Positions 2,405-32,283 of a DNA stretch of 33,553 nt are shown in pieces. The DNA lies in contig VGWG01000020.1 in NCBI GenBank assembly GCA_016873675.1, forward strand, positions 1-33,553, written 5' to 3'. Under the pieces are notes generated by a model that made no database searches, was not told the DNA's origin, and saw only the letters and a program-made list of their open reading frames with translations. Origin of the DNA: Lentisphaerota bacterium. GTDB taxonomy: Bacteria > Verrucomicrobiota > Kiritimatiellia > RFP12 > JAAYNR01. The first letter of the stretch is position 1. Every line of letters begins with the position of its first letter. Position numbers and translations under genes: made by a program.

Positions 2405-3536
2405 TCACCCCGCCTGCTTCGTCGCGTTCAGGCGCAACATCGCGTCAATAAAGGGCTGCAGCGCGCCGTCCAGCACCGCCTGCACGTTCGATGTCTGCTC
2501 GTCCGTCCGGTGATCCTTGACCATCGTGTACGGCTGGAGCACGTAGGAGCGGATCTGGCTGCCCCAGGCGATTTCGCCCTTCTCGCCGTAAAACCGCTCC
2601 ATCTCCTGGCGCTGCTGGTCGGCCTGCAGCTCGTAGAGCTTGGCCTTGAGGATGCTCATCGCCCGCGCCCGGTTTTTGTGCTGCGAGCGCTCGTTCTGGC
2701 AGGCCACGACGATGCCGGTCGGGAGGTGGGTCAGCCGGACCGCCGAGTCGGTCTTGTTCACATGCTGACCGCCCGAACCGCCGGAGCGGTAGGTGTCGAC
2801 CCGCAGATCATCCTCGTTGACCTCCACGTCGGCGTCGTCTTCCAGCTCGGCGATCACATCGAGCGAGCAGAACGAGGTGTGACGGCGCTTGGCCGAGTCG
2901 AACGGACTGATCCGCACCAGCCGGTGGATGCCCCGTTCGCCCTTGAGATACCCGTAAGCATAGGCCCCCCGCACCGCGAAGGTGATCGATTTGAGCCCCG
3001 CCTCCTCGCCCGCCTGACTGTCCATGACCTCGAGCTCGTAGCCGTTGTCCTCGCAATACCTGCGGTACATGCGGAACAGCATGTCGGCCCAGTCACAGGA
3101 TTCGGTGCCGCCGGCGCCGGAATGAATCGTGAGAAAGGCGTTGCTGGCGTCGAGCTTGCCGCCCAGGAGCGACTGCATCCGCAGTTTCCTGAAGATCGCT
3201 TCGCCGCGGGCCGCGGCGTCGGCCGCCTCCTGCACCGCCTGGTCGCGCGCCGCCTCATCCGGCTCGGCACGCGCCAGATCCATCAGCAGCGCGGCATCCT
3301 CGATCGCCAGGCACAGCCCGTCAAACGGCTTGACGAACGCCCGTTCGCGGTTGGTTTTGCCGATCACATCCCGCGCCGCCGCGGCATTGTTCCAGAATTC
3401 CGGGACCGCGGCCTGAGCCTCCAGCTCGTTTAAACGTTCGCGACGGTTGGCAATGTCAAAGATAACCTCGCATCTCTACCAGTCCCTCGCGCAACTGGTC
3501 GAGGCGCGTCATCACGTCCTCGATGGCAATAGCCAT
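2405..3536 (-). CDS. prfB: Peptide chain release factor 2, with programmed +1 frameshift
   Basis: Releases the nascent chain at UGA and UAA codons. From the ATG at 3536 (AAAGGA upstream) 26 codons are read, ending ...GAGGT-TAT-CTT, followed by an in-frame TGA at 3456-3458. A +1 slip at CTT-TGA-C continues as D-I-A-N-R-R-E-R and gives a full-length 376-residue protein; 1132 nt equals 376 codons plus stop plus one skipped base. This matches the classical RF2 autoregulatory site, including a Shine-Dalgarno-like GAGG just upstream of the slippery CTT. The main frame has the RF2 anticodon-like tripeptide SPF (SPFDSAKRRHTSF) and the catalytic GGQ in GGSGGQHVNKTDSAVR. Automated calling would shorten it to about 320 residues starting inside the gene. 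Confidence 0.96.
3455..3470 (-). promoter_or_regulatory. prfB: prfB programmed +1 frameshift site
   Basis: On the minus strand the site reads CGAGGTTATCTTTGAC: an SD-like GAGG, then TAT, the slippery CTT, and the in-frame TGA followed by C. It is nearly identical to the Escherichia coli arrangement (AGGGGGTATCTTTGAC). When RF2 is scarce the ribosome pauses at UGA and slips +1, so RF2 sets its own level. Confidence 0.93.
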
Positions 3537-3616
3537 GTTAAAAAATCCTTTCACCCGCCCGGTCTGGAGCCCCGCCCGCGCGGTCTCATCATACCGATCA
3601 AGGGGCTAAAGTGCGT

Positions 3617-3646
3617 ATTGTCGCACATGACCGGCCTTAGAGGCAA
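3617..3646 (-). promoter_or_regulatory. Possible promoter for prfB
   Basis: On the minus strand TTGCCT (3641-3646) and GACAAT (3617-3622) are separated by 18 bp and lie about 80 bp upstream of the prfB ATG. The match to sigma-70 consensus is moderate. It is the best candidate I saw between prfB and the insertion sequence. Confidence 0.3.
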
Positions 3647-3694
3647 GAAAGCAAACGCCCTTTTCTCTGCTTCCCATATCACGTCTTATTGGGT

Positions 3695-3768
3695 GAGGCT
3701 CTTGCAAAACCCCCCGGACGCTGCGCCTGACGGCTTGCGTCCGAGAGGTTTTGTAAGATTTTTTGCTG
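3695..3768 (+). repeat. GAGGCTCTTGCAAAA hairpin repeat, copy 1 (left of the transposase)
   Basis: Starts GAGGCTCTTGCAAAACC and returns as GGTTTTGTAAG, so it is an imperfect palindrome around a core containing CGCCTGACGGCTTGCG. It is the inverted partner of the copy at 5241-5315. Confidence 0.8.
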
Positions 3769-3904
3769 AAGCGGCGGGTCCGACGCTAAACAAACGGACT
3801 CGACAGGGCCATCGTTGCGGGTTTCGGCCGTTTTCGGGCAGGCGCCGCCGTCCTCGCCCTGTCGCGGGCGGGTTTGCCGAGGTCGGAGTCCGACTCGATC
3901 AGGT

Positions 3905-5011
3905 TCAGGCGAGCATTCTGAGCATCTGCTCGGCGGCGATGACCAGCAAGCCGAAGGCCAGGTGTGCCGCCACCTTGACCGGGCCGCGCACGCGGACATG
4001 CCGTCCACCGTGTTCCTCATGCAGATGGCTGTTGACCCGCTCGACGGCCGTGCGCTCGTTGTAGCGCCGCGACTCTGCCGGGGAAAACTCGATCTTTTCT
4101 CCCCGCCGCGCATTGTGGTCAATGATGGCCACGTGCCCCAGCCGCGCGGACATCTCGCGAATTTCCTTGGCGTCGTACGCGGCGTCGGCCAAGTCATAGA
4201 GGTTGATGATGCGTTCGGCGGTCATCTGCGCCAAGGGAATGGCGACCTGGCTGTCATGCAGGCTGGCGGAGGTGAGGATGAAGCTGACCGGGATATCGCC
4301 GTCGATCACGTCCAGATGGGCCTTGTACCCACGCCAGCATTCGGTCTTGTCTTGGCTGTTTTTCTTGCAGCCCCAGTCGCAAACTGTTGGCAAATCGGCC
4401 AGATTCGCCTTCAAATCGCGTTCGAGTTGACGTTGCATCCGGGTGGGTTCCGGTGGCTGAGCGGGAGGTTCGTCCTTGCGGCGGCGGCCGCGTTTGAGAT
4501 CGGCATTCGCCTTCGGCTTGGCCGCAGCCTTCTCGCGGGCGTGAATCGCGGTGGCGTCGCGGCTGACGTGTCCGGCGAGCTTCTCACCATAGTGCGTCTT
4601 GAGCATGGCCTCGTGAATCTGCTGCGGCCGGTCGTCGCGGGCGAAGGCGTCGAACGCGCGCGAAAAGGTTGCCTCAGAGGGCACCTCGCCAAGTGACTCC
4701 CAGCCGCACAACCGACGCAGGGCCGGACGGTGGCGGATGGCGTCGATCAGGTCGCGGGTGGTGGCGAAGTTCCACACGGCTTTGGCGATGTACGCCTTGC
4801 ACAGCGTTAACCGATCACTGGGCGGACAGCCGTTGCCGCACCATCGGTAGGTCGCGATGTGATCTTGCGGAGCGCACAGTTCGCAGACGGCCACGAACTG
4901 CCGATGCTTGTCGTCGAGCGCTCCGATTTCGTCCTCCAGCACTGGGAAGAGCCATAACTGGATGCTGCTCCACAACTGGCCCATTGGGTTTTGCTGTCGC
5001 GTGTTCTGCAT
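3905..5011 (-). CDS. IS4/IS5-superfamily DDE transposase
   Basis: Catalyses cut-and-paste movement of the surrounding element. From the ATG at 5011 the protein is 368 residues; this start is chosen because AAAGGAG sits 8 nt upstream, whereas a longer frame needs a TTG at 5095. The N-terminal part (SEATFSRAFDAFARD) resembles the DUF772-type domain of IS5/IS1182 transposases. The likely catalytic triad is Asp152 (SRDATAIHA), Asp276 (LADAAYD) and Glu324 (YNERTAVERVNS), with a basic, Pro-rich insertion after the first Asp. The triad and length look intact, so it may be active. The exact IS family assignment needs a database comparison. Confidence 0.85.
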   Translation of the reverse strand: MQNTRQQNPMGQLWSSIQLWLFPVLEDEIGALDDKHRQFVAVCELCAPQDHIATYRWCGNGCPPSDRLTLCKAYIAKAVWNFATTRDLIDAIRHRPALRRLCGWESLGEVPSEATFSRAFDAFARDDRPQQIHEAMLKTHYGEKLAGHVSRDATAIHAREKAAAKPKANADLKRGRRRKDEPPAQPPEPTRMQRQLERDLKANLADLPTVCDWGCKKNSQDKTECWRGYKAHLDVIDGDIPVSFILTSASLHDSQVAIPLAQMTAERIINLYDLADAAYDAKEIREMSARLGHVAIIDHNARRGEKIEFSPAESRRYNERTAVERVNSHLHEEHGGRHVRVRGPVKVAAHLAFGLLVIAAEQMLRMLA

Positions 5012-5240
5012 GCGCAAGTCTCCTTTCTGCGTGTCCACACCCGTTCTTTTGAGTGACGGATAAGTTATAACATATTGCGCAGCAAAAAGATACAACTATT
5101 TTAATAAAAAATGGGGGGGGGTAGACAAATGCCTTGGAATGTGCGACACTACTCTTGTTCGTTGTGGGCGTGGTATGCTGCCGCGCAGAAAACGATGGGG
5201 CATTGGTTGGAAAGTCAGACGAGTCCACGTTGGGCGACGC
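5012..5240. other. Non-coding part of the insertion sequence
   Basis: This stretch upstream of the transposase is AT-rich near 5050-5110 (on the minus strand it contains TGTTATAAC, a possible extended -10) and includes a run of nine Gs at 5113-5121. Short overlapping frames here look like chance frames. I see no gene. Confidence 0.5.
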
Positions 5241-5315
5241 GGCTCTTCAACTTACAAAACGCCCCGCGACGCAAGCCGTCAGGCGCAGCGTTGCGGGGGG
5301 TTTTGCAAGAGCCTC
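5241..5315 (-). repeat. GAGGCTCTTGCAAAA hairpin repeat, copy 2 (right of the transposase)
   Basis: Read on the minus strand it begins GAGGCTCTTGCAAAACC and ends GTTTTGTAAGTTGAAGAGCC, so GGCTCTT and AAGAGCC can pair and the whole 75 bp can fold. It is the inverted partner of the copy at 3695-3768 and lies 110 bp upstream of fabD. Confidence 0.85.
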
Positions 5316-20247: not shown

Positions 20248-21714
20248 CTACCAGGTGCAGAGACCTGTGGCCTCCTGGATGCGGTAGCGGAACACGCGCC
20301 AGCGGGAGTCATCCCGAAACGCTTTATAGCCGGTCGTGAAAACGCGGCCGTCGGCGTTCGTCCACAGCCGGTCAACGTAGGCGGCCGCTCCCGTAAGCGC
20401 CGGCGCCGCCCCGGGGCCCGAGACCCGCACGTCGGTCTCCAGATTGTAGTCCCGCACGTTCCGGCGGGTGAAGTTGGCCGAACCGGTCAGCAGGTCGGCG
20501 GTGCCGTCGCTCTTCTTGACCAGCAGCATCTTGGCGTGCATCTGCTCGCCATGGGTCACCGCCCAGCGGACGGGAACGCCCGCAGCGGCCAGCTCGCGCG
20601 CCGCCTGCCGGTTCGGCATCCCGTTCTTCTCCCGGCCGAAGGCGTCTTTGTTCGGGTCGAGCACCACGCGCATCGCCACGCCGCGACGCGCCGCCGCCTT
20701 CAGGGCGCGGAGGATCGGCCGGTCGGCGAGATAGAACATTACCAGGTCGAGCGAGTCCCCCTGTCCCGCCGCTCCGATCATGGCTTCGGCCGCGTCGGCG
20801 ATCGCTTCCTCCGTCACCACCTGTACCCGGACGGCGTTTATCGGCGCGGGGTCCGCCCACGCGCCGGCCGGGTCGGCCGGTGCCGCGCCCGACAACGAAA
20901 CCCGGCTGCCGCTCATGTTCAGGACCGCCTGCTCGGACTCCAGGACCGACCGCGCGGCCGGACCGTTGAAGACGACTCCAACGTTTGAGTGGACGCTGCT
21001 GCCGTCGTGGGGGTTGGCCGACGTGACCAGGGCGTACAGCTCGCCGCCCGCGTCGGCGACCACCACCTTGCGGTGGTTGGCCTTGAAGTTGAGCAGCGTC
21101 AGCCAGCTTCGCACGGTCACCTTGCCATCGCCGAACGGGTTGGCCACCCAGCCGCCCGTGCTGCTGTTGCCCCACGGTTTGAAGAGCAGCCGCCACACGC
21201 CCGACCAAGCCGTGTTGCTGTCGCGCAACCGGTCTAGCCGGGTGACGACGACCTCGACGCCGGCCTCTTGCAGACGCAGCAGGTGGCCGGCTTCGAGTCC
21301 GCCGTAGACCGTGTTCACCGGATCGGTGATCAGCACGGCCAGCAAATCCGGAACCGCGCGCTTGCGGGCGATCAGGGCGGAGGATAGTTCCTCGCACAGG
21401 TGGCGGTTCGGCGGCGGCCCCGCGCCGATGAACGGGTTGAAGAGAAACATGTCGACCACCGCCAGGTGTTCGGCCCTGCCGATCAGGGCGAAGACCTCGT
21501 CGAAAATATGCTGGTCGGTTTGACGCGCGCCCGCGCCGTCGAGGTAGGTCTGGTCGTACAGGAAGCGGACGTCCGAGGCGGGCAGGAGGTCGCTGCTGTA
21601 GGAGAGTCCATTGGGCAGGGGCTTCACCGCGTGGTAGCAGCAGCCCGGCGCGGCCGCCAGCCAGGCAACCGCCGCACCGTTTTTCAACAGAACCCGCACT
21701 TGGATGCCGGACAT
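20248..21714 (-). CDS. Phospholipase D-family protein, probably exported
   Basis: 488 residues with two HKD-type half-sites: NHRKVVVADAGG near residue 214, with SANPHDGSS after it, and MHAKMLLVKKSDG near 393, followed by LLTGSANFTRRN. This is the layout of cardiolipin synthases and related PLD phosphodiesterases, but the length and the absence of the two N-terminal membrane helices argue against a standard cardiolipin synthase. The N-terminus (VRVLLKNGAAVAWLAAAPGCCYHA) looks like a short signal peptide with adjacent cysteines; the lipobox is imperfect. ATG 21714 is preferred; a TTG at 21747 lies inside a hairpin repeat. The gene converges on tcdA with a 21-bp gap. Confidence 0.85.
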   Translation of the reverse strand: MSGIQVRVLLKNGAAVAWLAAAPGCCYHAVKPLPNGLSYSSDLLPASDVRFLYDQTYLDGAGARQTDQHIFDEVFALIGRAEHLAVVDMFLFNPFIGAGPPPNRHLCEELSSALIARKRAVPDLLAVLITDPVNTVYGGLEAGHLLRLQEAGVEVVVTRLDRLRDSNTAWSGVWRLLFKPWGNSSTGGWVANPFGDGKVTVRSWLTLLNFKANHRKVVVADAGGELYALVTSANPHDGSSVHSNVGVVFNGPAARSVLESEQAVLNMSGSRVSLSGAAPADPAGAWADPAPINAVRVQVVTEEAIADAAEAMIGAAGQGDSLDLVMFYLADRPILRALKAAARRGVAMRVVLDPNKDAFGREKNGMPNRQAARELAAAGVPVRWAVTHGEQMHAKMLLVKKSDGTADLLTGSANFTRRNVRDYNLETDVRVSGPGAAPALTGAAAYVDRLWTNADGRVFTTGYKAFRDDSRWRVFRYRIQEATGLCTW

Positions 21715-21734
21715 GAAACCACTCTCATGAGTTA

Positions 21735-21792
21735 GAGGCTCTTGCAAACACCGCGCAAAGATGCGCCTGACGGCTGGCTTCGCGCGGCGGTG
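21735..21792 (+). repeat. GAGGCTCTTGCAAAA hairpin repeat, copy 3
   Basis: Begins GAGGCTCTTGCAAA, contains TGCGCCTGACGGCTGGC as in the copies around the transposase, and can fold through CACCGCGC / GCGCGGCGGTG. It is a solo, diverged copy directly upstream of the phospholipase D-family gene. Confidence 0.75.
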
Positions 21793-21972
21793 AAGTTCGA
21801 TCCCGTCATTCCGGGCGCGACGGTCTCCACCACCCCAGCAATTCTAATCTTTGTTGTTGTGAGAAAAACGAAAAGTTGAAAGCTGATCAACGCCAACAAA
21901 GACGCTGGCGCCTCGGGTCTGAAATCTGAACCCTCTGTCTGCACACATCGAAAAGGATGCAAGCACTTCGGT
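21793..21972. other. Intergenic remainder between the phospholipase D gene and the helical-repeat gene
   Basis: AT-richer, with a short GTTGAAAGCTGA motif recalling the 7/8-nt repeat at 921-1040. A 76-codon frame on the minus strand covers most of it and runs into the hairpin repeat; I regard it as chance. Confidence 0.4.
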
Positions 21973-32177: not shown

Positions 32178-32182
32178 GAAAA

Positions 32183-32283
32183 GAGGCTCTTGCAAAACCC
32201 ACCGTGGCACGGGCGTCCCGCCCGTGAAACACGGGCAAGATGGCCGTGCCGCGCCCGTACTCCCGGGGTTTTGCAAGAGCCTC
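32183..32283. mobile_element. 101-bp palindromic MITE-like element (hairpin repeat family, copy 4)
   Basis: Ends are a perfect 18-bp inverted repeat: GAGGCTCTTGCAAAACCC at 32183-32200 and its complement at 32266-32283. These are the same ends as the bracketed insertion sequence. The interior differs from the other copies: it holds the self-complementary CACGGGCG..CGCCCGTG and CACGGGCAAGATGGCCGTG blocks. AAA flanks it on both sides, compatible with a 3-bp duplication but uninformative in an A-rich context. It starts 6 bp after nifJ and ends 2 bp before the antiporter ribosome binding site, and as RNA would form a long hairpin. Confidence 0.85.

Follow-up and report, generated by a model that had tools for sequence, protein, structure and literature searches.

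The window, that is, the whole 33,553-nt stretch of DNA analyzed here, contains a 1,621-bp element at 3695-5315 that we classify as a complete IS1182-like insertion sequence (IS). Its transposase gene (3905-5014, minus strand) is intact and encodes a protein of 369 aa with the domains PF05598 (DUF772) and PF01609 (DDE_Tnp_1). The 15-bp sequence GAGGCTCTTGCAAAA is found exactly at both ends in inverted orientation (3695-3709, plus strand; 5301-5315, minus strand), and it recurs in the window at 32183-32197 (plus) and 32269-32283 (minus) and, with one mismatch, at 21735-21749 (plus). When up to three mismatches were allowed, eight matches were found in the window compared with 0.65 expected. Longer inverted arms were also observed, with complementarity of 100% over 23 nt (3694-3716/5294-5316) and 89% between 3706-3741 and 5268-5303. 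An earlier note on this DNA had proposed a 1.6-kb element defined by inverted ends, which these data confirm, and homologues with the same boundaries, described below, also indicate that the element is complete.

The perfect ends sit inside hairpin-forming inverted repeats of about 60 bp. At one end (3701-3757, plus strand), the hairpin forms between the outer CTTGCAAAAC and GTTTTGTAAG, an inverted copy of it farther in; the layout is the same at the other end (5251-5309, minus strand) and in homologues. Folding of 3695-3760 and 5248-5315 gave z = -6.1 and z = -6.4, respectively, relative to shuffled sequences. Maintenance of these hairpins by compensatory change was considered and rejected, as covariation among nine sequences did not exceed that of shuffles, though 95.6% of the cells pair. 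The core CGCCTGACGGCTTGCG, which had been described as common to three copies, is present in both IS ends, but the copy at 21735 has only the variant CGCCTGACGGCTGGC; the core is absent from the element at 32183.

Stand-alone repeats had been noted at 21735 and 32183, and each copy had been described as an imperfect palindrome. The motif is indeed present at both sites, but they are not two repeats of one kind. Positions 32183-32283 (no strand assigned) form one two-ended element of 101 bp, a MITE whose two 15-bp ends are perfect and whose interior is a palindrome different from that of the IS ends, and its fold (z = -8.8) agrees with the description as a palindrome, as do the folds of the IS ends. 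The MITE lies in the gap separating the stop codon of a pyruvate:ferredoxin oxidoreductase gene from the next gene, and its flanks match over 3 bp only (AAA), which is not decisive because the site is A-rich. Its identity as an intrinsic terminator was rejected, as a terminator scan found none, and no Rfam families were detected in the window. In contrast, 21735-21790 (plus strand) is a degraded single IS end whose partner end is absent. It consists of the motif with one mismatch and the core variant, is 79% identical to the IS end over 47 nt, and was rejected as a hairpin element because its fold is no better than those of shuffles (z = 0.03). A PLD-domain protein is encoded at 20248-21747 (minus strand), and its sole NCBIfam match is DISARM DrmC, at 46.9 bits against a cut-off of 133.

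The best NCBIfam model for the transposase was IS1182, with 96.6 bits against a cut-off of 270 (NF033551), and the same model was also the best, again below the cut-off, for the two closest homologues. Because the cut-off of this curated model was not reached, the element is filed as IS1182-like and not as a certified IS1182 member. Membership of the IS5 family was rejected, as both IS5 models scored lower than IS1182 (64.3 bits with a cut-off of 140, and 56.1 bits with a cut-off of 110). Membership of the REPIN/RAYT systems, in which the partner is a Y1-type REP-associated tyrosine transposase, was also rejected because the associated enzyme is a PF01609 DDE transposase. The best plasmid relatives are 40-45% identical over 99% of the protein and are mostly annotated as IS1182. 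They include the transposase of ISUnCu17, an IS1182-like element on an Aeromonas caviae plasmid (NZ_AP026405.1), which is 43% identical to that of the window; for ISUnCu17 and the IS1182-annotated relatives taken together, the range is 43-45% over the full length. The termini of ISUnCu17 and of a Comamonas relative (GAGCCTCTTGCAAAA and GAGGCTCTTGCAGAA) resemble the ends of the window IS. ISUnCu17 starts with GAGCCTCTTGCAAAA, finishes with TTTTGCAAGAAGCTC and has ATGA at both flanks, and the Comamonas relative has TGGT at both flanks, so both the terminal sequence and the duplication of 4 bp appear to go with this transposase branch. Both features of the ISUnCu17 branch, similar terminal repeats and a 4-bp target duplication, were found for our element, the duplication (TGCT) coming from an IS copy split over the contigs C55 and C106. 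However, hairpin ends that include a full inner inverted box, as in the window IS, are not evident in ISUnCu17 and related elements. No reports on ISUnCu17 were found in the literature searched.

Close homologues of the transposase (74-86% identity) are present in MAGs labelled Lentisphaerae, Kiritimatiellae and Verrucomicrobia and in one labelled Brocadiia. Where their ends lie within a contig, most of these ends carry GAGGCTCTTGCAAAA or a sequence close to it, and the hairpin layout is usually the same. Elements with such ends are L090 (994-2659), L091 (2694-4345), L095, L098 and L100; no comparable hairpin was found at the right end of L091. Relatives at about 50% identity have ends that are related but different (GAGGTAATTGCAAAAC, GAGGTTCTTGCGAAAC). 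The earlier note had suggested examining whether other transposase copies end at the motif, and homologues in other MAGs, at 76-84% identity, are bounded by it. The same or related ends on homologues indicate that the IS has this motif as its terminal repeat and does not just adjoin it by chance.

The home genome is a Kiritimatiellia-like MAG of 3.17 Mb in 218 contigs. It contains 103 matches to GAGGCTCTTGCAAAA at no more than one mismatch, compared with 0 for the reversed-pattern control, so the statement that only four copies are visible understates the family. Facing motif ends were paired from the stretches around the matches, giving 37 two-ended pairings with independent flanks. The pairings fall into size classes near 35-43, 72, 100, 121, 147-161 and 175-196 bp, plus two nested larger pairings. 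An exact 4-bp target duplication was found in 19 of the 37, compared with 0.74 expected when the right flanks were shuffled. For five related genomes, the corresponding values were 21/45 (0.73 expected) for 4-bp duplications and 5/45 (0.17 expected) for 5-bp duplications. About half of the pairings lack an exact duplication, and the duplicated target words vary, with no strong target preference evident. One pair of perfect ends (C8:5045-8776) was considered as a 3.7-kb cargo element and then treated as two ends, because there is no target duplication and ordinary-looking chromosomal genes lie between them. The small elements have the properties of MITEs: they are short, share terminal inverted repeats with an autonomous element and are in many cases flanked by target duplications, and three of them are absent at orthologous sites in a congener. 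Neither the 15-mer GAGGCTCTTGCAAAA nor the family was found in the literature searched.

The 350-bp element L033 (C4:28345-28694) aligns to positions 1-119 and 1421-1621 of the IS at 88-89% and, judging from this alignment, is an IS whose middle has been lost. G001:C13:2198-2526, in a congener, has the same make-up. In the 100- and 122-bp classes, the palindromic interiors do not come from the IS. The interior motif of the 100-bp class was also found away from these ends (L283, L288), so MITEs of this type may have formed around an independent palindrome. Empty sites in relatives had been proposed as a check, and we joined the flanks of 16 elements without the element and searched them against the congener G001. 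Three of the 16 joins are contiguous there, namely those of L035b (43 bp, TCTT), L061 (176 bp, CACA) and L072 (101 bp), showing that these elements are missing at the orthologous sites. At the L035b site, the element and one 4-bp copy are absent and both sides align. The L061 site has a few further small indels, and at the junction of the L072 site four further bases are missing, as would be seen if a duplication had decayed. At the remaining sites, the flanks are unlinked or not alignable in G001. For the window IS and the 32183 element, the flanking genes are non-adjacent in G001 and G002, so no empty site is readable.

The smallest members are eight elements of 35-43 bp in three genomes; a ninth pattern match, in G012, is outside this set. 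Most of them match one end of the longer MITEs through the inner inverted box and then diverge at a GAGNC terminus of their own. L047 is identical to the left end of the 175-bp class at 38/38 bases, L145 and L035b match the right end of this class, and L066 matches the end of a 146-bp element, while for L050 and L143 the match to ends of longer MITEs did not exceed that of the best controls with shuffled interiors. Exact 4-bp duplications flank three of the eight (L055, GGGA; L035b, TCTT; L143, ATCT), and an empty orthologous site was found for one (L035b). The flanks of the 43-bp L145 (G001:C18:48557-48599) prolong the palindrome (AATGT/ACATT), with no direct duplication.

Single hairpin ends may thus be mobile units, and a hairpin end may be able to move alone. 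We put forward tentatively the possibility that one hairpin end of an IS1182-like element, only 35-43 bp long, can transpose as a unit complete in itself. Such an end would consist of an outer box with a cleavage site and an inverted inner box; once the inner box had gained a GAGNC terminus of its own, the end would move alone with a 4-bp duplication, and two such ends around a spacer would make up a larger MITE. The direction could be either from the ends to the small elements or from small elements that paired to give larger MITEs. If this is correct, few mobile DNA units linked to an identified DDE transposase would be smaller than these elements. It is also quite conceivable that the 35-43-bp elements are non-mobile remnants of longer MITEs whose interior was deleted, as might happen by slippage across the palindrome. 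Palindromes are known to undergo slippage deletion, what is left of a MITE after its insertion would retain the 4-bp duplication and the empty orthologous site, and the exact duplication is present in only three of the eight. However, if a 175-bp MITE simply lost its interior, the outer parts of both of its ends, which differ, would remain, whereas the small elements match one end through the inner box, followed by a second GAGNC terminus, and they recur in three genomes.

Among the nine DDE_Tnp_1 genes in the home genome, only the window transposase has the motif at its ends. In a comparison of 59 genomes, motif copies were most numerous (48 and 62) in the two that have a close full-length transposase. 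G001 and G008 have transposase fragments and 15 and 12 motif copies, respectively, and G031 and G045, with only 46-50% relatives of the transposase, have no motif copies. These results suggest that the small copies are most likely mobilized in trans by this transposase. It is unlikely that they are moved by a different, unseen transposase with similar ends. This explanation would fit the draft genome G029, in which 11 exact motif copies, some with target duplications, were found and no close transposase was detected, and also the lack of IS bodies in these draft assemblies. However, the other eight DDE_Tnp_1 genes of the home genome all lack the motif at their ends, and a high motif copy number accompanies a close full-length transposase. 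Motif copies with no close transposase detected are also found in G009. The earlier note had named hairpin copies in genomes lacking a related transposase as an observation that would count against its interpretation, and G029 is a weak case of this kind. It weakens but does not break the link between the transposase and the repeats, because IS bodies are lost at contig ends in these draft assemblies, as in the home genome. There, the first 127 bp of C106 are identical to an IS end, and C55 ends and C171 begins within IS ends, so the count of a single transposase copy is probably too low. The IS copy split over C55 and C106 has matching TGCT flanks.

From the sequence comparisons, we consider it very probable that the locus is an autonomous IS1182-like IS of the ISUnCu17 branch and that the elements with the same ends and no transposase gene are a MITE population, which it most likely mobilizes in trans. 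The proposal that the structured ends of an IS spawned non-autonomous copies is well borne out by the shared ends, the 4-bp duplications, the three empty sites, the 350-bp deletion derivative and the homologues with the same ends. The DDE transposase would recognize the terminal GAGGCTCTTGCAAAA and presumably cut at the outer G, and insertion would occur through a staggered target cut of 4 bp, sometimes 5 bp. Some MITEs arose by internal deletion of the IS, and in others the palindromic interior is unrelated to it. Each end of the IS and of the 147-196-bp MITEs is a hairpin composed of the outer box and the inner inverted copy of CTTGCAAAAC, and single ends of this type (35-43 bp) seem to have moved independently. 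It is very improbable that the hairpins are an independent family that was spread in some other way and that the transposase gene later landed between two copies, making the IS a secondary composite. In favour of this reading, the window IS lacks a 4-bp target duplication (GGGT left, ATTA right), each IS end resembles a complete hairpin unit, and G029 and G009 have motif copies with no close transposase detected. Against it, homologues in several other MAGs show the same ends at the same distance from the transposase, related ends and 4-bp duplications are found in more distant relatives, diverged transposases have correspondingly diverged ends, and the deletion derivatives carry IS sequence inward of the hairpins.

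An IS with non-autonomous MITE offspring is a kind of system already known, and the single-end small elements are its unusual part. IS-derived MITEs are known, and the partner transposase, target duplications, a deletion intermediate and empty sites are seldom visible together. Small dispersed repeats (SDRs) of cyanobacteria are very short palindromic repeats inferred to be mobile, and we know of no identified transposase for them. Likened by their description, SDRs and our small elements are both very short palindromes; the latter share ends with the element of a transposase. SDRs are named in PMC3116915, where the usual size of MITEs is given as about 100 to 400 bp. REPINs with their RAYT transposases (PMC3116915) are also short mobile hairpins of paired inverted units that depend on a transposase encoded elsewhere, whereas the enzyme of the window family is a DDE transposase and its insertions have 4-bp duplications. 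IS-derived bacterial MITEs are reviewed in PMC10969869, and examples include MITEAba12 (PMC6382973) and the Coxiella QMITEs (PMC5896051). Like the present family, they are short and non-coding, with IS-type terminal inverted repeats, target duplications and many copies; the present family differs in that its series reaches 35-43-bp elements matching a single end. The series from the IS through the 350-bp derivative and the 100-196-bp MITEs to the 35-43-bp single-end hairpins suggests a route for the origin and spread of very small dispersed palindromes. The family also explains many of the breaks between contigs in these MAGs and offers a defined substrate for asking about the minimum length of a DDE transposon.

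The left (prfB side) and right (fabD side) flanks of the window IS do not share a contig in either G001 or G002. This may be due either to recombination between IS copies joining two sites or to a mis-join by the assembler, and the identification of the element is unaffected. The match to the congener G001 stops at or near 3569-5314, 21735-21960 and 32178-32183, so the synteny breaks coincide with motif-bearing repeats and may reflect either rearrangement or mis-assembly. The open frame of prfB (release factor 2; 2405-3367, minus strand) lacks about 50 positions at the start of the profile, which use of the customary programmed frameshift would explain. A short repeat array of the TTTCAGC type is present at 916-1048, and many similar stretches are found in G001. 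A second, GC-rich palindrome family (GTAGGGCAGCGGCGTCCCGCCGCGCCGCAGGC) lies beside L039, L056, L077 and L058, including both flanks of the split IS copy.
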